Below, piece after piece: positions 9,334 through 22,698 of a DNA stretch of 54,322 bases. How positions within the stretch are numbered: the first letter of the stretch is position 1; every line of letters starts with the position of its first letter. A program made the translations under genes and the position numbers. The notes below the pieces were generated by a model, which had not been told where the DNA came from, ran no database searches, and saw only the letters and a program-made list of their open reading frames with translations. The stretch comes from Blastocatellia bacterium (GTDB taxonomy: Bacteria > Acidobacteriota > Blastocatellia > HR10 > J050): positions 1 through 54,322 of the forward strand of contig JANWZE010000044.1 of NCBI GenBank assembly GCA_025054955.1, written 5' to 3'.

Positions 9334-10797
9334 GTGCATTGCGCTCACTCACGCTTGGGTATGTTGGCTTGCCGAGTGATGGCAGTCATGATCTTTCTTG
9401 TTCTGGCTGTGATGACGCTCACAGTCGGCTTCGTTTCTGCTCAAGACAACGGCAATGGCGACATCTACCGACACGCCGTTGAGCAGTTGCGTCAGAAAGA
9501 GCGCCAGTTGCTTGCGCGGTTGGAACAACAACAGAACGACGCGGCGCTCTATACCGAACTTGGTCGCGTTCGACTGGAACTGGGCAAGAGCGCCGAAGCG
9601 GTGGCTGCGCTGAAGAAAGCCATCGCGTTGGACCCGCAGCAAGCCGACGCGCGCGCTCACCTGAGCCTCTACTACTTCCAAACAGGTCGTGAAGCCGCCG
9701 GCGAGGACTTACTGAAAGCTGCCTTGATGATTGATCCGTACAATTATCTGGCCAATTACTACGCCGGCTTGCTTTATAGGCGACGCAATCAGCCGCTCCG
9801 CGCTGAGCTGTATCTCAGAAAAGCCATTCGCATTGAGCCGGGTCAACTGGCGGCCAGTCGCGAGTTGGTCAGCCTTTACGCCGAGCAAAAGCGGTTTGCT
9901 GAAGCCGAAGCGGAACTCGACCGATTGTGTAACCATGATCCCCAGAACCCGCAGATACGCTATGAACGGGCTGTCTTCTGGGCGCAAATGGGTCGGTACG
10001 CCGAAGCCGTCAAAGAATACGAACAGGTCCTTGTTCTCAATCCTGCGCTCGTGCCGGTTAAATTGGAACTGGCACTGGCGGCGTTCAGGCTCGGCGATTA
10101 TCAACGGGTCGTGGCTATGTTGAGCAATTACGAAGGCGGGTTGCGCTTGCCCGAATCGTTCTATCTACTCGGTCATAGCTTGGCTGAACTGGGTCGGTTT
10201 GATGAAGCGACGACACAATTGAAACGCGCCCTTGAGCTGAAGCCGGATTTGCACGATGCGCGCATCCAGCTCGGCCGCATCGCCATGACCAGGAGAGAAG
10301 CACACGCCGCGCGTGATGCCTTTCGGCGTGTTTTAGAAGCTCAGCCGGGCCACATCCAAGCGCGATATTTGTTGGGCATCACACTGGAATCAATCGGTGA
10401 ACTCGAACAAGCCGAGAAGGAATACATGGAACTGATCGGTCGCGCGCCGGACCGCTTTGAGGGATTTCATGGGCTGGGCGCCGTCGCGTTTCGGCGGGGA
10501 GACGATCAAACGGCTCTACAAGCACTGCACCGCGCTGTTCAATTGAATCCTCAGCACGCTGACGTGCGCATTCTGTTGGGGCGCGCACTGGCGCGTGCTG
10601 GCCAACTGGCTTCGGCCGTTGAGCAGTTCACTCAGGCGATCGCGCTGAACCCATCACGTGCCGACGCGCATTATCAACTGGCGCTGGTCTTGCAACGATT
10701 GGGTCGTCACGAAGAAGCAGCAAAGGAATTTGCTACTGTCGAGCGACTCAATGCTGAGTTTCGGCAACGCACCGGCGGCATGGAACTCCCTCGATGA
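9334..10797 (+). CDS. Secreted TPR protein 2
   Basis: A protein of about 487 residues: signal sequence (hydrophobic run VMAVMIFLVLAVMTLTVGFV, cut near VSAQ), a short charged helix, then roughly eleven TPR units (AALYTELGRVRLELGKSAEA and later repeats). I chose the GTG at 9334 because GGAGGG at 9321-9326 sits 7 nt upstream and the signal peptide then starts properly. The ATG codons at 9301 and 9361 lie in the same frame, and the frame is open back to 9118 over the end of the previous gene. The repeats differ enough from TPR protein 1 to suggest an old duplication. It precedes a CRTAC1-like gene by 19 nt, so co-transcription is likely. Confidence 0.83.
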   Translation: MHCAHSRLGMLACRVMAVMIFLVLAVMTLTVGFVSAQDNGNGDIYRHAVEQLRQKERQLLARLEQQQNDAALYTELGRVRLELGKSAEAVAALKKAIALDPQQADARAHLSLYYFQTGREAAGEDLLKAALMIDPYNYLANYYAGLLYRRRNQPLRAELYLRKAIRIEPGQLAASRELVSLYAEQKRFAEAEAELDRLCNHDPQNPQIRYERAVFWAQMGRYAEAVKEYEQVLVLNPALVPVKLELALAAFRLGDYQRVVAMLSNYEGGLRLPESFYLLGHSLAELGRFDEATTQLKRALELKPDLHDARIQLGRIAMTRREAHAARDAFRRVLEAQPGHIQARYLLGITLESIGELEQAEKEYMELIGRAPDRFEGFHGLGAVAFRRGDDQTALQALHRAVQLNPQHADVRILLGRALARAGQLASAVEQFTQAIALNPSRADAHYQLALVLQRLGRHEEAAKEFATVERLNAEFRQRTGGMELPR

Positions 10798-10816
10798 TGA
10801 GAAAAGAGCATGGGCT

Positions 10817-12547
10817 ATGATGAAACGAATAGCCAGTGGCCTCCTGCTGATCTGCCTGCTCGGCCTCAATAGCTTCAGCCAATCAACAGGGCCGCGTGTT
10901 CAATTCACAGACATCACCGATCTATCGGGCTTAGGCACGTTCCGTCACGTCGGAGGCAGCTTGGAGAAGCGGTACATTCTGGAGACAACCAGCAGCGGCG
11001 TCGCTTTGTTCGATTATGATCGCGACGGCTGGCTTGATGTCTACCTGGTTAACGGCGGCAATCTCCAGATGCTACGAGAGCAGAAGCTGGCAGCCACTCA
11101 TAAATTGTTCCGCAATCGGCGAGACGGCCGATTTGAAGATGTCACCACGAAAGCCGGTGTGGGCGGCAACGGCGCCTGGGGTCAAGGCGTCGCTGTGGCG
11201 GATGTGGACAATGATGGATGGGATGATCTGTATGTCACCAATTTCGGCCCAAACATCCTCTACCGTAATAACGGCGATGGGACGTTCACCGACGTGACAC
11301 GCAAAGCCGGTGTGGCTGACCCACGTTATTCAACTGGCGCGGCGTTCGGCGATTACGACGGCGATGGCGACTTAGACTTATTCGTCGCCAATTATGTTGA
11401 ACTCGATCTGAATAATTTGCCCGAGCACGGTGGCACAAATCCTATCGGCGCCAACTTCTGCATGTTTCGAGGCGTGCCGGTCATGTGTGGGCCGCGCGGA
11501 TTGAAAGGCGCTGGCGACACGCTCTATCAAAACAACGGCGATGGCACTTTCACTGATGTCAGCCGGAAAGCCGGCGTTGACGATGCGAAGGGGTACTACG
11601 GTTTCCAGCCCGTCTGGTGCGATTTCGACAATGATGGCGACCTAGACCTCTATGTCGCCAATGATTCCACGCCGAATTATTTCTATCAAAATAACGGCGA
11701 CGGGACATTCAAAGAAATCGGTTACCCGTCCGGCACAGCGGTCAATGAAGAAGGACGCGAACAAGCGGGCATGGGCGTCGCAGTCGGCGATTATGACGGC
11801 GACGGGTTGATGGATATATACGTCACCAACTTTTCTGATGACACCAATACGCTCTATCACAATGAAGGGCGCAATCAGTTCACCGATGTGACGTATCCCA
11901 GTGGTCATGGCGAAACTACGTTGGCCTCCCTGGGTTGGGGGACGGCCTTCTTTGACTTCGATAACGATGGTGACCTTGACCTGTTTGCCGCCAACGGTCA
12001 TGTCTACCCGCAAGTTGATAAGCATGACTTCGGGACATCATACAAGCAGCGAAACTTGCTGTTTGAGAATGTGGGGCGAGGCAGGTTTGTCGAGGTGGGG
12101 CGGCAGGCAGGGCCAGGGCTGAGCCTCATCAAATGCAGTCGCGGCGCGGCATTCGGCGACATTGACAATGACGGTGATGTGGACATCGTAATCAACAACA
12201 TAGATGACACGCCGACGGTATTGCGCAACGATGGCGGCAACAAAAACAATTGGCTGACCCTGAACTTGGTCGGCGCCAAGATGAACCGTCGCGCCGTCAA
12301 CGCGCGCGTCAGACTCCGCATCGGCCAGCGATGGCAGATGGCCGATGTGTTCAGCGGTTCCAGCTATCTTTCTCAGAATGATTTTCGTCTCCACTTCGGA
12401 TTGGGTGCAGCCAGCACAGTGGATGAGATTGAAATCCGTTGGCCAAATGGCACGCGATCAAACTTGCGCGATGTCAAACCGAATCAACTGTTGAACGTGA
12501 AGCAACCTGACGTTCAGCCCAAAGCAACCCGACGAGGCTCAGCATGA
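10817..12547 (+). CDS. CRTAC1-like FG-GAP/VCBS protein with ASPIC/UnbV domain 1
   Basis: A protein of about 576 residues with a signal peptide (MMKRIASGLLLICLLGLNSF, cut near SQS). It is built of repeated VCBS/FG-GAP blades carrying calcium-loop motifs such as DYDRDGWLDVY, DVDNDGWDDLYV, DYDGDGDLDLFV and DFDNDGDLDLYV, a probable seven-bladed beta-propeller. The C-terminus is an ASPIC/UnbV domain (NWLTLNLVG through DEIEIRWPNG). Such proteins resemble cartilage acidic protein 1 and are secreted in many bacteria; their biochemical role is not settled. Two start codons, ATG 10817 and 10820, are equivalent in effect. It overlaps the next TPR gene by 4 nt (12544-12547), which points to translational coupling. 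Confidence 0.87.
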   Translation: MMKRIASGLLLICLLGLNSFSQSTGPRVQFTDITDLSGLGTFRHVGGSLEKRYILETTSSGVALFDYDRDGWLDVYLVNGGNLQMLREQKLAATHKLFRNRRDGRFEDVTTKAGVGGNGAWGQGVAVADVDNDGWDDLYVTNFGPNILYRNNGDGTFTDVTRKAGVADPRYSTGAAFGDYDGDGDLDLFVANYVELDLNNLPEHGGTNPIGANFCMFRGVPVMCGPRGLKGAGDTLYQNNGDGTFTDVSRKAGVDDAKGYYGFQPVWCDFDNDGDLDLYVANDSTPNYFYQNNGDGTFKEIGYPSGTAVNEEGREQAGMGVAVGDYDGDGLMDIYVTNFSDDTNTLYHNEGRNQFTDVTYPSGHGETTLASLGWGTAFFDFDNDGDLDLFAANGHVYPQVDKHDFGTSYKQRNLLFENVGRGRFVEVGRQAGPGLSLIKCSRGAAFGDIDNDGDVDIVINNIDDTPTVLRNDGGNKNNWLTLNLVGAKMNRRAVNARVRLRIGQRWQMADVFSGSSYLSQNDFRLHFGLGAASTVDEIEIRWPNGTRSNLRDVKPNQLLNVKQPDVQPKATRRGSA

Positions 12548-14124
12548 GGAATCATCGTCAACGGTTGTGGCTGCTGTTCGCGCTGAGCGGGCTTCTGCTG
12601 GGCTGCGTGATCGCGTGGCGCGCCCACGCACAAGCTGACCGCGTGGAGTCGCACATCGAGCAGAGCATGGCGCTACTAGAGACCGGTGATCTCATGCAAG
12701 CTGAGCGCGCCGCTCGCGCCGCCTTGCACCTGGCTCCGCGCTCAGCCGAGGCTCACAATTTGTTAGGAATTATCCTCGATCAACAAAACCGTCATAGCGA
12801 AGCTGAACGGCAATATCAGACAGCGTTGCGCTATAACCCACGTTTCATTGATGCGCGGAATAATCTGGGCAATCTTTACCTGAAGCAGCAAAAGACTCTC
12901 CAGGCCATCGCTCAGTTTAAGCGTGTCTTGCAAGTTGACCCGCAACACCCCGCAGCCAATTACAATTTGGGACTTGTCTACCGCGAACGTGGTCAGTATG
13001 AACAGGCGCTTCAACACTTGGAACGCGCCCGTGCAAAATCGGCGGATGATCCGGCTTTGCTCTTTGCGCTGTGCGACGTTTCGTTGAAGACCAATCGTCA
13101 TGCGCAGGCGCTGCAGCTTGCTCAGCGCCTGATGGAAAAAGGCAGCGACGATGTGCGCGTGCACTTTACGCTGGGGTTGATGCTGGCTCAAAGCGGCTTG
13201 TATCAGCCGGCCGCCGAACGGTTCCGGCTTGTTGTCGAAAAACAACCACACAGCTTTGAAGCGCAATACAACCTCGGACTGGCGCTCTACAATTTGGACC
13301 AGCATGAAGCGGCGAAAAAGGCGCTCACAGCAGCGGCTGACTTGAAACCTGAGCTGGCTGAGGTGCATTATCGGCTGGGACTGGTGCTGGCCGAGATGGG
13401 CGATTCTAACGGCGCTATTGAGGAATTCAAACACGCCGTCGAACGTGATGCGCAACACGCTGACGCTCATTTTCTGATGGCCGAGGAATACTTCAAACGC
13501 GACTACGTGGCCGCAGCCGTCGCGTCTTATGAGAAAGCCGTCGCCCTCGCCCCGAATAATCCCGCCTACCTGATGCGGCTGGCCAACGCCTGCTTCAAAG
13601 TCTCTCAATATGCTCGATCCGAACAGATCTATCAGAAAGCGCTTCAGTGGAACGACGCGAAACGAGGAGAAATCTACTATCTGATCGGCTACGCTCAACG
13701 CGCGCAAGGCAAGTTCACCGAAGCAGTGGCAAACTTCCTCAAGCAAATTGCTATACAACCTGATCACGTCGAATCACTAGCCAATCTCGGCTATGCGTAC
13801 TTGCAACTTGGTCAACCTGAACAAGCCGAACCATACCTGCTGCGAACGCTCAAACTGCGGCCCATTCACGTCGAAGCGCATCTGACGTTAGGACAGGTTT
13901 ATATGCGTCAGCGCAAATTCGCCGACGCGCAACGTGTGTTGGAACGAGCCGTTGATCTGAAGCCTGATTACACACAGGCGCGGTATCAACTGTTTCTGGC
14001 CTACTCGCGCGCCGGACAGCAAGAGCTGGCCGAGAAGGAACTGGCCATATTCAAAGCGCTCGAAGAAGAAGACAAGCGCGAACGCGAGCTGCGCGAACGA
14101 CGGCAGCAGGCGGAAAAACCATGA
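12544..14124 (+). CDS. TPR protein 3, envelope-anchored
   Basis: A 526-residue protein with an N-terminal signal or membrane segment (LWLLFALSGLLLGCVIAW), about 13 TPR units (for example AEAHNLLGIILDQQNRHSEA and AHLTLGQVYMRQRKFADAQR) and a charged, probably helical C-terminal tail rich in Glu and Arg. It begins within the stop of the preceding CRTAC1-like gene (ATGA at 12544-12547) and ends within the start of the next one (ATGA at 14121-14124). That places it as the coupled middle partner of two beta-propeller proteins. A scaffold or assembly role for them is inferred, not shown. Confidence 0.87.
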   Translation: MRNHRQRLWLLFALSGLLLGCVIAWRAHAQADRVESHIEQSMALLETGDLMQAERAARAALHLAPRSAEAHNLLGIILDQQNRHSEAERQYQTALRYNPRFIDARNNLGNLYLKQQKTLQAIAQFKRVLQVDPQHPAANYNLGLVYRERGQYEQALQHLERARAKSADDPALLFALCDVSLKTNRHAQALQLAQRLMEKGSDDVRVHFTLGLMLAQSGLYQPAAERFRLVVEKQPHSFEAQYNLGLALYNLDQHEAAKKALTAAADLKPELAEVHYRLGLVLAEMGDSNGAIEEFKHAVERDAQHADAHFLMAEEYFKRDYVAAAVASYEKAVALAPNNPAYLMRLANACFKVSQYARSEQIYQKALQWNDAKRGEIYYLIGYAQRAQGKFTEAVANFLKQIAIQPDHVESLANLGYAYLQLGQPEQAEPYLLRTLKLRPIHVEAHLTLGQVYMRQRKFADAQRVLERAVDLKPDYTQARYQLFLAYSRAGQQELAEKELAIFKALEEEDKRERELRERRQQAEKP

Positions 14125-15848
14125 AGGTCAGTGGCGCGTGGTCAGTGGTCAGCGGTCAGTGGAAGGTGAGGGTCGCTGCTGTGGTGGCGATCGTTCTTAC
14201 AGTGTTGTTGTCAACTCAGGGACGACAGAAGCTGCCTCCAGCCAACAAGAAGATTCAATTCGTCGAGGTCACGGCAGCGGCCAAGATCACCTGGCGGCAC
14301 GACAACCTGGCCACACCCGAAAAGTACTTGATCGAGACAATGGGCGGCGGCGGCGCGTTTCTGGATTATGACAACGATGGCTGGTTGGACATCTATCTGG
14401 TCAATAGCGGTGAGACGCCGTTTCACAAGCCCAAGACAGCAATTCGCAATGCGCTCTATCGAAATAATCGTGACGGCACATTCAGCGACGTGACCGAGAA
14501 AGCTGGCGTGATGGGTCGCGGTTTCGGCATGGGGGCGACCGTCGCTGACTACGACAATGATGGACTGAGCGACATCTATGTGACCAACTTCGGCCCCAAC
14601 ATTCTCTATCGCAATAACGGAGACGGCACGTTCACTGACGTGACCGACAAAGCGGGCGTCGGCGATCCGCGGTGGAGCACCAGCGCCGCTTTTTTTGATT
14701 ACGACAATGATGGACGACTCGACTTGTTCGTCTGCAATTACCTTGACTGGAATTTCGACAAAAACGTCTACTGTGGCGAGAGTCGCCCCGGCTATCGCGC
14801 CTACTGTCATCCCGACGTATTCAGAGGGATTGTGAACACGCTCTATCGGAACAACGGCGATGGCACATTCACGGACGTCTCGGCCAAGACCGGTATCAGC
14901 TCGGTCGAAGGCAAAGCATTGGGCGTTGTCGCTGCCGATTACAATGATGATGGCTGGATAGACATTTACGTGGCTAACGATGCGGTGCGAAATTTCCTCT
15001 TCAAAAACGACGGTCAAGGCCGGTTCCGTGAGATTGCCTTGATGGCAGAAGTTGCCTATGGACTGAACGCCAAACCGGAATCCGGCATGGGCGTGGACTT
15101 CGGCGATTACAACGGCGATGGCAAGCTTGATCTGTTCGTCACCAACATTGATCTTGAGCCGAATCGGCTGCATCGCTATGAGGGTGACGATCGGTTTTTT
15201 GACGCGACGGTTCAGGCCGGCCTTGCAGAGATGGCCATGCTCTATAGCGGATTCGGCACGCGCTTTGTTGATTTCGACAACGACGGCGATCTCGATATTT
15301 TTGTGACTAACGGCCATCCGCTCGATAACGTGCATCTGTTCCGCGAAGGCGTCTACTACGCAGAAGAACCATTCCTGTTGGAGAATATCAACGGCGTATT
15401 CCGTAACATTGCCGACACGCTGGGAGAAGTGATGAAACGCCGCTACGCCGGTCGCGGGCTAGCATCGGGTGATTACGACAACGATGGCGACACCGACTTT
15501 CTTTTGATCAATTGCGGGCAACCGCCCGTTCTGATCCGTAACGATGGCGGCAATCGGAATAATTGGATCGGCCTCAAGCTGATCGGAGTCAAGAGCAATC
15601 GTGATGCCATCGGCGCCACTGTCATCGTCAAAGCGCAGAAGCTGACGATTTGGCGCAGCGTCAACGGCGGAGGTAGTTACTGCTCCGGCCATGACATGCG
15701 ACTGCTGGTTGGACTCGGCCAACGACAAAAAGTTGACGAGATCGAAATCCGCTGGCCCAGCGGCACGCGCGATCGTCTGCGCGCGCCACGCATCAACAGG
15801 TATGTGGAGGTGCGCGAGGGCGCGACGAATGCGGAGCAGAAAAGGTGA
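14121..15848 (+). CDS. CRTAC1-like FG-GAP/VCBS protein with ASPIC/UnbV domain 2
   Basis: A 575-residue protein, paralogous to the one at 10817. The N-terminus has a hydrophobic export signal (VAAVVAIVLTVLLS) preceded by a stretch encoded by six heptamer repeats (14127-14168). The VCBS/FG-GAP blades have acidic calcium loops (DYDNDGWLDIYLV, DYDNDGLSDIYVT, DFDNDGDLDIFVT, DYDNDGDTDFLLI). The ASPIC/UnbV C-terminus runs from NWIGLKLIG to DEIEIRWPSG. An insertion with paired cysteines (VYCGESRPGYRAYCHP) matches a Cys-containing insert (NFCMFRGVPVMCGP) in the first paralogue, so disulphides and an extracytoplasmic location are likely. It starts by 4-nt overlap with TPR protein 3 and is the last gene of the cluster. 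Confidence 0.87.
   Translation: MKVSGAWSVVSGQWKVRVAAVVAIVLTVLLSTQGRQKLPPANKKIQFVEVTAAAKITWRHDNLATPEKYLIETMGGGGAFLDYDNDGWLDIYLVNSGETPFHKPKTAIRNALYRNNRDGTFSDVTEKAGVMGRGFGMGATVADYDNDGLSDIYVTNFGPNILYRNNGDGTFTDVTDKAGVGDPRWSTSAAFFDYDNDGRLDLFVCNYLDWNFDKNVYCGESRPGYRAYCHPDVFRGIVNTLYRNNGDGTFTDVSAKTGISSVEGKALGVVAADYNDDGWIDIYVANDAVRNFLFKNDGQGRFREIALMAEVAYGLNAKPESGMGVDFGDYNGDGKLDLFVTNIDLEPNRLHRYEGDDRFFDATVQAGLAEMAMLYSGFGTRFVDFDNDGDLDIFVTNGHPLDNVHLFREGVYYAEEPFLLENINGVFRNIADTLGEVMKRRYAGRGLASGDYDNDGDTDFLLINCGQPPVLIRNDGGNRNNWIGLKLIGVKSNRDAIGATVIVKAQKLTIWRSVNGGGSYCSGHDMRLLVGLGQRQKVDEIEIRWPSGTRDRLRAPRINRYVEVREGATNAEQKR
14127..14168 (+). repeat. Heptamer tandem repeat inside a signal-peptide coding region
   Basis: Six 7-bp units: GTCAGTG, GCGCGTG, GTCAGTG, GTCAGCG, GTCAGTG, GAAGGTG. 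Three are identical. Since 7 is not a multiple of 3, the repeat is read in all three phases and encodes the segment between the start and the hydrophobic core of the second CRTAC1-like protein. It has the same period as the array at 22699-22852 but a different sequence. Confidence 0.75.
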
Positions 15849-15908: not shown

Positions 15909-15938
15909 TTGGCAGTGTGACACGGTCCTCAGTACAAT
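15909..15938 (+). promoter_or_regulatory. Candidate selD promoter
   Basis: TTGGCA at 15909-15914 and TACAAT at 15933-15938 are separated by 18 nt, a good housekeeping-type promoter. Transcription would start close to 15945, only about 7 nt before the selD ATG at 15952, so the leader would be very short. No strong Shine-Dalgarno sequence is visible. Confidence 0.5.
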
Positions 15939-15951
15939 CCACCGTCAGGTT

Positions 15952-17004
15952 ATGCAACAAACAGAGCAGATTCGATTGACCCAGATGAGTCATGGCGCAG
16001 GTTGAGCGTGTAAGTTGAGTCTTGCCGACCTGTCGCAGGTGCTGCGCCAGTTGACTCCATCGGATGATCCAAACATCTTAATCGGGCCGGCCACGTCCGA
16101 TGATGTCGGCGTCTACCGTCTCAACGACGACATGGCGCTGGTGATGACGACCGATTTCTTCGCGCCTGTCGTGGATGATCCATACTGGTTCGGCGCCATT
16201 GCTGCGGCTAATTCATTGAGCGATGTGTACGCTAAAGGCGTTCAACCACTGGTCGCGCTCAATCTGGTTGCGTTTCCGAGCAAGCATCTGCCGCTGGATG
16301 TCCTAACGCAGATTCTCAGGGGCGGCGCTGACAAAGCCCGTGAAGCGGGCGTCGCCATCATCGGCGGACACAGCGTTGACGACGCCGAGCCAAAGTATGG
16401 ACTGGCCGTTGTTGGTATCTGTCATCCCAGCGCGATCATTTCCAATGCCACGGCTCGTCCGGGCGATCGGTTAGTGCTGACCAAACCGCTCGGCCTCGGC
16501 ATCATCACTACCGGCATCAAGCGCCAGCTCGTTGACCAATCAACAATCCATCAAGCGACGCAGTTGATGGCGACGTTGAATAAAGCCGCAGCTCATGCGA
16601 TGGTCAACGTCGGTGTTCACGCTTCAACCGATGTGACCGGCTATGGATTGATCGGCCACCTGCGCGAGATGGTCAGCGCCAGCGGCGTCGGCGCAACTGT
16701 TCGCGCTGCTGCTGTGCCGGTGCTGCCGGCCACGTGGGAGCTGATCCCGCAGAAGGCGATACCGGGCGGCAGCCGTAACAATCACGCTTTTCTGTCAGCG
16801 TTTGTTCAATGGGACGACGGCGTGTCCGAGTCCATGCAACTGGTTCTGTGCGATGCCCAGACATCCGGCGGCCTGCTCATTGCAGTCGCTCCGGAGAAAG
16901 CAGACCAATTGGTTGAAAAGCTCGTTGCTGTTGGCGCGCCAGTGGCCGCGCTGATCGGTGAAATCACGGCTGGTCCGGCCGGCTACATCCATGTCATCCC
17001 GTGA
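15952..17004 (+). CDS. selD: Selenide, water dikinase with active-site selenocysteine (TGA recoded)
   Basis: SelD makes selenophosphate from selenide and ATP, the selenium donor for Sec-tRNA and 2-selenouridine. A conventional reading starts at TTG 16015 and loses the catalytic N-terminus. Upstream, the same frame is open to an ATG at 15952 except for one TGA at 16003-16005. Translated through it, the N-terminus reads RLTQMSHGAGUACKLSLADL, which matches the family motif GAG(C/U)GCK with Sec18, Cys20 and catalytic Lys21. Full length is then 350 residues, normal for the family. The downstream part has SDDVGVY, the TDFF segment and IIGGHS. Immediately after the TGA, ACCT-GTCGC-AGGT (16028-16040) can form a small hairpin with a G at the first loop position, about 26 nt from the TGA, consistent with a bacterial SECIS. 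The extent and recoding are strongly supported by motif; SelA, SelB and tRNA-Sec are not in this window. Confidence 0.9.
16003..16050 (+). promoter_or_regulatory. Recoded TGA and candidate bacterial SECIS hairpin of selD
   Basis: The TGA at 16003-16005 occupies the position of the catalytic Cys/Sec of SelD. Bases 16028-16032 (ACCTG) pair with 16036-16040 (CAGGT), leaving TCG, or with the last pair open a GTCGC loop. The distance from the TGA falls in the range generally seen for SelB-recognised elements. The fold was made by eye. Confidence 0.6.
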
Positions 17005-17095
17005 ACTGAGAATGGATCACAGGTGTTCCGCCTGTGATCCATGAACTGAGAATGTGGCACAGGCGTTCCCACCCGTGTTCCATGGACTGAGAATG
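17005..17095 (+). repeat. Palindromic repeat family A, tandem copies after selD
   Basis: ACTGAGAATG occurs at 17005, 17045 and 17086. Each of the first two copies is followed by a hairpin: GGATCACAGG / CCTGTGATCC (17014-17023 and 17031-17040, perfect 10-bp arms), then an imperfect one around GGCACAGGCG-TTCC (17056-17083). The third copy stops after the conserved start. The unit is about 40 bp and begins directly after the selD stop, so it could act as a terminator between the convergent selD and thpR. Further copies lie at 27664-27695 and 40819-40850. The rest of the gap up to 17233 has no clear gene. Confidence 0.85.
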
Positions 17096-17233
17096 TGACA
17101 ATTGCTATAGGAGAGACCCTGCTCAGTTGCCTGTGGCCGATTCTCTAGGTGAGTTTGGCCAATCCACAACCCGCGTTCCGCAATTCGTAATCGGCATAGC
17201 TCGAGCAGATCACCGTCTTCTACGACCCCCTCA

Positions 17234-19314: not shown

Positions 19315-20655
19315 CTATCCCAAATGCTCCCGAATAGTGTTGGCCAGTTGATGGGCTAACGTGTGAACCAGGACTGGATCGTCGGCTTCGATCATGACGC
19401 GGGCTTTGTTCTCCGTGCCGGAATAACGCAGCAGCAACCGACCTCGTCCGTGCAACAGGTGCTCGATCTGCTGTTGTTCGGCGACAATGGCCGGGACCTG
19501 CTCAAACGGCGTCTTCGTTTTCACCGGCACGTTGACCAACAGTTGCGGATGCCGCGTGAAGCCACGCGAGAGTTGGTCTAGGTCGGAGCCGGTTTCCGAC
19601 ATGATGCGCAGCACTTCAATGGCTGTGATCAGTCCGTCGCCAGCCAAACTGATCTGCGGAAAAATAATGTGACCCGATTGTTCGCCGCCAAGCGACCCAT
19701 TCAGTTCGAGCAATTTTTCCAGCACATATCGGTCGCCCACCGGCGTGCGGTAGAGCGTGATCTCGTGTTGACGCAATGCTTGCTCCAATCCCCAATTGCT
19801 CATCACGGTGCCAACGACAAGGTCGCCATTGAGCCGTCCCTGCTGTTTCATCTGAGTGGCAACGATGAAGAGAATATGATCGCCGTCAAAGATGCGTCCA
19901 TCCGGTCCGACGAACAACGCGCGGTCGGCGTCGCCGTCGAAGGCGATGCCTAGATCACAGCCATGCTGGCGCACCTGCTCAGATAAGGCTTCAATGTGAA
20001 TCGTGCCACAACCCTGGTTAATGTTGACACCGTTGGGTTCCACGCCCCACGCCTGAATCTCTGCCCCTAGCGCCTGAAGGACAGTCGGCGCAATCTCGTA
20101 AGCGGCTCCGTTAGCGCAATCCAAGCCGATCCGGAGTCCACTCAGATTTACCTGATGGCCGACCTGCTTAATCAAAAAATCCATGTAGTGGCGCCGTAGC
20201 TCTTCGCCATCCTCCAGCCAGACCGTCGCTGAAGGGGTCACGGGCGCAGCCTGGCGCACATCTGCCTCAATGGCTTGCTCCAACTGATCGTCCAGTTTGG
20301 CGCCGGTCGAAGCGAATATCTTGATTCCATTATCAGGGACGGGATTGTGCGAAGCTGAGATAACCACGCCGGCGTCGAATTGTTGCGAGCGCGTCAAGTA
20401 AGCGATGCCGGGCGTCGTCATAATGCCGGCGCTGATCACATCGGCTTCCATGTCGCGCAAGGCGCGCGTGACCAGCCCTTCGATCCAGCGGCCTGATTCC
20501 CGCGTGTCGCGCCCGGTAACTACGCGCGGGGGGCGTCCGAGTCGTTCTCTCAAATGGCTTGCCAACGAACGAGCGCAGGTGTAAATGGTCGGTGGGTCGA
20601 GCGGGTATGTGCCAGGCTCACCACGAATGCCGTCTGTGCCAAACAAGGATGCCAT
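19315..20655 (-). CDS. glmM: Phosphoglucosamine mutase
   Basis: A 446-residue member of the alpha-D-phosphohexomutase family converting glucosamine-6-phosphate to glucosamine-1-phosphate for UDP-GlcNAc, peptidoglycan and LPS. The N-terminus MASLFGTDGIRGEPG is typical of GlmM. The phosphoserine loop is ISASHNPVPDNGIKIF, the metal loop FDGDADRALFV, the sugar-binding loop GEQSGHIIF and the phosphate-binding loop LLRYSGTENKARVM. Length matches E. coli GlmM (445). It lies 20 nt behind cdaR, in the widespread cdaA-cdaR-glmM order; in Firmicutes CdaR and GlmM modulate the cyclase. Confidence 0.97.
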   Translation of the reverse strand: MASLFGTDGIRGEPGTYPLDPPTIYTCARSLASHLRERLGRPPRVVTGRDTRESGRWIEGLVTRALRDMEADVISAGIMTTPGIAYLTRSQQFDAGVVISASHNPVPDNGIKIFASTGAKLDDQLEQAIEADVRQAAPVTPSATVWLEDGEELRRHYMDFLIKQVGHQVNLSGLRIGLDCANGAAYEIAPTVLQALGAEIQAWGVEPNGVNINQGCGTIHIEALSEQVRQHGCDLGIAFDGDADRALFVGPDGRIFDGDHILFIVATQMKQQGRLNGDLVVGTVMSNWGLEQALRQHEITLYRTPVGDRYVLEKLLELNGSLGGEQSGHIIFPQISLAGDGLITAIEVLRIMSETGSDLDQLSRGFTRHPQLLVNVPVKTKTPFEQVPAIVAEQQQIEHLLHGRGRLLLRYSGTENKARVMIEADDPVLVHTLAHQLANTIREHLG

Positions 20656-20675
20656 GCTGCCAGCGCCTCTCTTGC

Positions 20676-21647
20676 TTATCGAGCTGTGATCATCAGCTTC
20701 TCCGGTCGAACGGACAACACGCTAACCAGCTCGCGGTAGCGTTCGGATAATTCAACCTTCGGAGAAACTTCACGACCATCCTTTGAAAACGTCGTTGCAT
20801 CGAGTTTCACAATCATATCCTGCGGCCCCATTTTGTCAAGCAAGCTCTTGGGTCCCTTCAACGTGACGGTCACACTGGTGGCAGAAATCGCAAGATTGCG
20901 TGGCAGCGAAGGCAGCGTGATCTGAGGAAATTGCTTTTCCGCGACCTGATCCGTGCGGATGGTGAGGTTGATCTGTGACGGCGTGAGTGTCACATGCGGT
21001 CCCGGCTGTTGCAAGGAGACAGTCAGCGAAGCGTCGGTTTGAACCGGTGGGAGTGTGATCGGTTGGGTCAATACGTGCTGCACCGGGTCAATCTCGGAGG
21101 CCGGACCGCTGATATTGACCTGAGACGGATTCATCTGATACTCGGCAATCGCCAGGTGAGCGGGTAATTGTTCCAGATCAAACACGGGCTTAACGGCAAC
21201 AGACCGGCGCACGACCGATTCAACCAGCACAGGAATGTTCGGCGGATCAATCCTGAGCACTTCAGCCTCCGAGGGCAAGCGCACATGAGCTGCTCCCAGC
21301 CAAATCAAATGATTCATCGGCGACATTGCCGTCACGTCAATCACCACGCGAACGTTTGTTCGACTCAGATTGGTCACAACAGACAAAGGGCCACGCACAC
21401 GGATGTCTACCACCTTGATGGGGACAGCGGTGACCATCGTATCGGAGCGGCGATTGATGATCTCTACAGTGACGTTCTCGATGGTGCGGTCGCGCTCGCC
21501 TTGTTGCGACAGTGTGAACCACATCAGCAGAGCAATGCCCAGAGAGACCAGCTTGAGTGATTTATTCTCGGTGAAAAACCGCTCGACGGCTTCTAGCAAC
21601 ACGGAGCGCCACTCGTCCAGTTTTTGTTGCCAACTCTGCTCTGCCAT
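20676..21647 (-). CDS. cdaR: YbbR-domain regulator of diadenylate cyclase
   Basis: A protein of about 323 residues with one N-terminal transmembrane helix (LKLVSLGIALLMWFTLS) and three to four extracytoplasmic YbbR-type beta domains (repeated pattern VTVEI..., VRVVIDVTAMSP, VNISGPASEIDPVQHV, VTVTLKGPKSLLDKM). YbbR/CdaR proteins bind and tune membrane-bound CdaA. The ATG at 21647 is preferred; an in-frame GTG at 21650 directly abuts the cdaA stop. Its position between cdaA and glmM is diagnostic. Confidence 0.92.
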   Translation of the reverse strand: MAEQSWQQKLDEWRSVLLEAVERFFTENKSLKLVSLGIALLMWFTLSQQGERDRTIENVTVEIINRRSDTMVTAVPIKVVDIRVRGPLSVVTNLSRTNVRVVIDVTAMSPMNHLIWLGAAHVRLPSEAEVLRIDPPNIPVLVESVVRRSVAVKPVFDLEQLPAHLAIAEYQMNPSQVNISGPASEIDPVQHVLTQPITLPPVQTDASLTVSLQQPGPHVTLTPSQINLTIRTDQVAEKQFPQITLPSLPRNLAISATSVTVTLKGPKSLLDKMGPQDMIVKLDATTFSKDGREVSPKVELSERYRELVSVLSVRPEKLMITAR

Positions 21648-21650
21648 CAC

Positions 21651-22559
21651 CTATTTTTCAGTGCCGGAGACACGTGAGCGAAATCCTAGCCCCTTCCACA
21701 TCAGGGCGCGGTTTGTTAATGTGGTCAGGATTGGCTTTGGCATGGTGAGCGCGGACGTCTCAGCGGCCGCTTCACGCCGGTAGCGCCTTGGCGGCAACAA
21801 CACCTCGTGCAAGGCGAGACGCAACTGCGCCGCGTCCAGGTGTCGCTTAATCTCGCCGTTCATTGCCAGTGACGTGATGCCGGTTTCTTCCGATACGACC
21901 AGCGCCACGGCATCCGTATCTTCGGTAATGCCAATGGCTGCTCGGTGACGTGTGCCCAGCTCTTTGGAAAGATAAGGATTGAGCGTCAACGGCAAGAAAC
22001 AACTGGCTGCGGCGATACGGTCCTTGCGAATAATGACCGCGCCATCATGCAACGGCGCTCGCGTGTTGAAAATGGTCACCAGCAAATCGTAGGAGACGCG
22101 GGCATCCAGCCGCACGCCCGTATCCATGAAGTGTTCCAGTGAGACGTCCCGCTCAAAGACGATTAACGCTCCGATGCGCTGAGCCGACAGCGTGGTCGCC
22201 GCCAGGATGACCTCTTCAACCATGAATTCATCGCGCGACAATCGCACCTGACGAAAACCGAAGCGTTGAGGCACATATTTGCCAAATTGGATCAATGCTG
22301 AACGCAGCTCGCTCTGAAAGATCACAATGATGACGAACCCTAAGTAGAGCAGGGCATGTCGTAGCAGGAATTCAAGGCTTCGCAGCTCATATCGCACAGC
22401 AACGCTATGGATCAACCAAACGACCAGCACGCCATACACGATTTGAATTGCCCGCGTGCCCTTGATCGGTTTAAGCAGACCGTAAATGATCAGCGCCACA
22501 GCAGCCACGTCGAGCACATCTCGGTATGAAATTTGGGCAAATAACCGCGTGAAATTCAT
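21651..22559 (-). CDS. cdaA: Diadenylate cyclase, membrane-bound CdaA type
   Basis: A 302-residue protein with three N-terminal transmembrane helices (VLDVAAVALIIYGLL, AIQIVYGVLVVWLI, ALLYLGFVIIVIF) and a DAC domain carrying the catalytic DGA motif (LHDGAVIIRKDRIAA) and the RHR motif (GTRHRAAIGITEDTD). It joins two ATP into cyclic di-AMP, a messenger for potassium and osmolyte control and cell-wall balance. I start it at ATG 22559 (MNFTRLFAQISYRDV), the usual position before the first helix; the frame is open further upstream but has no family similarity there. A variable C-terminal tail follows the DAC domain. It is the first gene of a five-gene reverse operon. Confidence 0.95.
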   Translation of the reverse strand: MNFTRLFAQISYRDVLDVAAVALIIYGLLKPIKGTRAIQIVYGVLVVWLIHSVAVRYELRSLEFLLRHALLYLGFVIIVIFQSELRSALIQFGKYVPQRFGFRQVRLSRDEFMVEEVILAATTLSAQRIGALIVFERDVSLEHFMDTGVRLDARVSYDLLVTIFNTRAPLHDGAVIIRKDRIAAASCFLPLTLNPYLSKELGTRHRAAIGITEDTDAVALVVSEETGITSLAMNGEIKRHLDAAQLRLALHEVLLPPRRYRREAAAETSALTMPKPILTTLTNRALMWKGLGFRSRVSGTEK

Positions 22560-22698
22560 CACGTGCCTATTATGGCTTTGCTTAGGAGCAGAATCAAGCA
22601 TTGAACCTTTGGTTGCAACGCGAAATCCACCCACAATTGAGGAAGCGGATCAAGGATGGAAGAGGAATAATTCACGGGACCTGGCTCACGGACGGCGA

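Follow-up and report, generated by a model that had tools for sequence, protein, structure and literature searches.

The selD gene of this Blastocatellia bacterium almost certainly encodes a selenide, water dikinase that uses selenocysteine (Sec) as its catalytic residue, with the UGA at codon 18 read as Sec. We studied the gene in a window of 54,322 nucleotides, which is contig 44 of a 152-contig, 4.69-Mb draft bin that is 99.5% complete. The reading, made by sequence comparison, draws on a reading frame interrupted by a single TGA, the conservation of that TGA in relatives, the genes of the Sec machinery, a conserved and covarying hairpin downstream of the codon, and two more selenoprotein genes in the same genome. 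The features are listed in Table 1.

Table 1. Features of the selD locus and additional selenoprotein genes; positions are those of the window unless a locus is named.
Feature	Position	Strand	Basis
Sigma-70-like promoter, TTGGCA-18-TACAAT	15909..15938	+	Promoter scan; like arrangement in two same-family genomes
selD, Sec-containing selenide, water dikinase (predicted, 350 aa, TGA 16003 taken as Sec)	15952..17004	+	Profile match; 3u0o alignment; relatives
In-frame TGA, predicted Sec codon, residue 18, catalytic position	16003..16005	+	Reading frame; 3u0o alignment; TGA in relatives
Truncated ORF with TTG start, expected from a standard gene call	16015..17004	+	Table-11 ORF search
Predicted bacterial SECIS hairpin, CUG-u-CGCAG-[GUG]-CUGCG-c-CAG	16030..16050	+	Predicted fold; covariation; bSECIS rules
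AhpD-like selenoprotein, CFYU replacing CxxC	L166:1381-1938	+	One in-frame TGA; above TIGR01926 cut-off
Peroxiredoxin-like PF00578 selenoprotein, UVFC (UxxC)	L152:1429-2001	-	One in-frame TGA

Translation from ATG 15952 runs to a stop at TGA 17002-17004, and the only internal stop is the TGA of codon 18. A first-pass annotation of this DNA had proposed the 350-residue frame, with its TGA at the Cys/Sec position of SHGAG-U-ACK, and had suggested aligning the read-through translation with SelD families; both the translation and the alignments confirm the proposal. The read-through protein matches the SelD profile TIGR00476 at 386.7 bits (cut-off 125) over positions 1-310 of 311, and carries the Pfam domains AIRS and AIRS_C. 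It aligns over nearly its whole length, from residue 5, with 3u0o, and the TGA of SHGAG-U-ACK lines up with the Cys in that protein's SHGAGCGCK. The catalytic Cys/Sec position and the conserved Lys three residues later, both known to be essential in SelD, are in place. A table-11 ORF search, by comparison, finds TTG 16015 as the only start and yields a 329-aa product, precisely the standard call that had been predicted to lose the active site: both residue 18 and Lys 21 are absent from it. Selenoprotein genes are usually misannotated owing to their UGA codons (PMC4561486).

Just upstream of selD (10658-15848), a TPR protein is encoded between two FG-GAP/UnbV_ASPIC proteins. At the selD stop codon begins a tandem repeat (17002-17097), made of about 2.4 copies of a 41-nt unit, TGAACTGAGAATG... 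Farther downstream, on the minus strand (19315-22634), lie genes for a CdaA-type diadenylate cyclase, a YbbR-domain protein, and a member of the phosphoglucomutase/phosphomannomutase family; this run looks like the usual cdaA-ybbR-glmM operon.

Could the TGA be a sequencing or assembly error for TGC or TGT in an ordinary Cys-type SelD? The window comes from a draft bin, and Cys-SelD, with TGC or TGT at the site, does occur in the same class, in family f6. We searched 58 genomes for SelD. Two same-family genomes (SelD 71-73% identical) and six same-order genomes (64-67% identical) each have one TGA in a frame that is otherwise open. In all eight, independent of one another and covering the site, the TGA occupies the same codon within SHGAG-U-ACK, and none has the TGC or TGT that the first-pass annotation had named as the mark of an error; one further member of the order (G003) was left out of the count because its contig ends before the site. 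SelD loci in the other phyla searched mostly carry TGA as well, with a minority of TGC or TGT. The codon is a UGA that stands opposite the Cys of homologues and is kept in independent genomes; together with the complete Sec machinery described below, these eight relatives practically refute a sequencing error, to which we give almost no credence.

The rest of the genome holds what Sec decoding requires. Profile searches recovered selA (591.5 bits, cut-off 268), selB (354 bits, cut-off 242), and selC, the gene for tRNA-Sec (68.7 bits, cut-off 47), whose anticodon is TCA according to ARAGORN. The selB gene is full-length, an open frame of 645 codons, and its product has the GTPase, beta-barrel, and SelB winged-helix domains. 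Thus selA, selB, selC, and selD stand in one genome, as had been predicted from selD alone, and selB and tRNA-Sec, whose absence from the complete genome would have spoken against Sec decoding, are both present in the bin. The proposed search for other selenoproteins returned at least two more genes with an in-frame TGA, one AhpD-like and one peroxiredoxin-like; each TGA is followed by a SECIS-like hairpin, the loops being GGA and GGU. AhpD-like CxxU proteins and peroxiredoxin-like UxxC proteins of PF00578 are both on a published selenoprotein list (PMC13188914). We also sought a Sec-type formate dehydrogenase in the genome, where none of 13 matches has an internal stop (0/13), and a selenouridine synthase, for which nothing exceeded the cut-off and a single sub-threshold match spanned 22 residues.

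Two other accounts of the UGA fare no better. In one, codon 18 is a true stop in a pseudogene undergoing decay, or translation begins only at the internal TTG. A mechanical gene call does yield this shorter ORF, but the protein is conserved on both sides of the TGA, and the codons before it, compared by eye with the two same-family genomes, encode a near-identical peptide with mostly synonymous differences, the pattern expected of translated sequence. A product lacking the N-terminus would be without its catalytic residue and Lys 21, and the genome offers selA and selB no second SelD of comparable score (next-best match, 41.8 bits); we regard this account as exceedingly improbable. Reading of the UGA by a near-cognate tRNA, with insertion of Trp, Cys, or another amino acid in place of Sec, has no specific point in its favor and can be dismissed with near certainty, given that the position is the catalytic Cys/Sec, that tRNA-Sec (anticodon UCA), selA, and selB are all encoded, and that selD itself terminates at a TGA read as a normal stop.

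The first-pass annotation had pointed to a small hairpin at SECIS-like distance after the TGA. This hairpin starts 24 nt past the UGA and has a 5-bp upper stem, a 3-nt apical loop (GUG, 16039-16041) that lies 33 nt past the UGA, and a minimum free energy (MFE) of -10.9 kcal/mol. Bacterial SECIS (bSECIS) rules specify a loop of 3-9 nt with G in the first two loop positions, a stem of 4-16 bp, a distance of 16-37 nt from the UGA, and an MFE of at most -7.5 (PMC13188914); the hairpin agrees with all four rules, although such an energy in a single sequence is reachable by chance. Energy tests on the window alone give no signal: the z-score against dinucleotide shuffles is -0.01, and 34% of synonymous recodings give folds that are equally stable or more so. 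The hairpin is therefore judged by covariation instead. A search with RF00031 was uninformative, since this is presumably the eukaryotic SECIS family and it had no match in any control genome. ARAGORN also reports a "tRNA-???" at 15986-16059, over the Sec codon and the hairpin; it is without a proper anticodon, and we reject it as a chance cloverleaf.

Covariation supports the element where its own stability does not. We scored eight hairpin pairs across 82 distinct TGA-type SelD sequences: the pairs are formed in 81% of cases, versus 30-45% in slid controls. The pair 33-43 (counted from the UGA) is Watson-Crick in 55 of the 82, and GC, TA, AT, and CG are all used; 2000 shuffles, which ignore the kinship of the sequences, gave a mean of 21 and a maximum of 33. 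Nucleotide 33 is the third base of codon 28 and nucleotide 43 the first base of codon 32, and the covarying codon pairs seen are GCG-CGC, GCT-AGC, GCA-TGC, GCC-GGC, and GTT-AAC. Because these codons covary, the choice of residue at position 32 (R, S, C, G, or N) appears to be under the influence of the RNA. Among the relatives, the nearest one (G001) has a weaker stem, and family f3, of the same order, has a stem in another register in place of this hairpin. In Cys-type SelD sequences, we looked for the same pairing preference and found none.

In the stretch scanned for promoters, the candidate listed in Table 1 is the single promoter-like site (0.4 expected). It stops 13 nt short of the ATG, so the very short leader remarked on earlier holds. 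The layout is common to two same-family genomes, in which, by eye, TTGGCA-17-TATAAT ends 10 nt upstream of the selD ATG. In family f3, also by eye, TTGACG-18-TAGTAT leaves a ~28-nt leader; some members have a Shine-Dalgarno-like stretch. With promoter hexamers so near the start codon, the selD mRNA of the family is likely to be nearly leaderless. The SECIS element would then lie within about 105 nt of the transcript's 5' end, and an initiating ribosome would reach the Sec codon very early. Such an arrangement might couple production of SelD to the supply of selenium through a feedback point that involves no 5' UTR, an idea that we consider rather unlikely.

We infer that the mechanism is ordinary SelB/SECIS decoding. 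A ribosome translating selD would meet the UGA at codon 18; SelB-GTP, carrying Sec-tRNA-Sec with anticodon UCA, would bind the hairpin, and Sec would be inserted in place of termination. The resulting SelD would make selenophosphate from selenide and ATP, and SelA would use the selenophosphate to make Sec-tRNA-Sec. In this manner, the product of SelD would feed the synthesis of the very aminoacyl-tRNA that its own translation consumes, such that SelD would be needed for its own synthesis.

Sec-containing SelD is already well known: among prokaryotic selenoprotein families it is described as the second most widespread, and the Blastocatellia gene adds one more case; its importance therefore lies mainly in correct annotation. 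It corrects a gene call that drops the active site of a central enzyme of selenium metabolism, and it flags an ARAGORN false positive that could pass into automatic annotation. It also documents a complete-looking Sec trait, with SelD, AhpD-like, and peroxiredoxin-like selenoproteins, in an under-studied lineage of Acidobacteriota; our literature search found no paper naming both Blastocatellia and selenocysteine. Understanding of Sec decoding itself is unchanged.

Set beside known systems, the gene is closest in kind to the Sec-SelD (SPS2; TIGR00476) of Carboxydothermus, Anaeromyxobacter, and Dehalococcoidia: the enzyme, the Sec position, and the register of the downstream hairpin are the same, protein identity is ~47-57%, and there is no mechanistic difference. 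The Cys-type SelD of solved structure, 3u0o, is a whole-length homologue that shares the SHGAG-x-xCK motif but has Cys at the catalytic position, where the Blastocatellia protein is predicted to have Sec. The Cys-SelD of f6 is likewise an orthologous enzyme, but its codon at the Sec position is TGC or TGT and it lacks a conserved hairpin. Family f6 (L028-L037) retains tRNA-Sec, with anticodon TCA/UCA, beside Cys-SelD, so that here SelD changed between Sec and Cys while the tRNA was kept. Finally, the hairpin resembles the bSECIS model (PMC13188914) in its small apical loop starting with G-U and its stem of more than 4 bp, whereas its primary sequence is that of the codons for the SelD peptide, as expected of a SECIS within a coding region.
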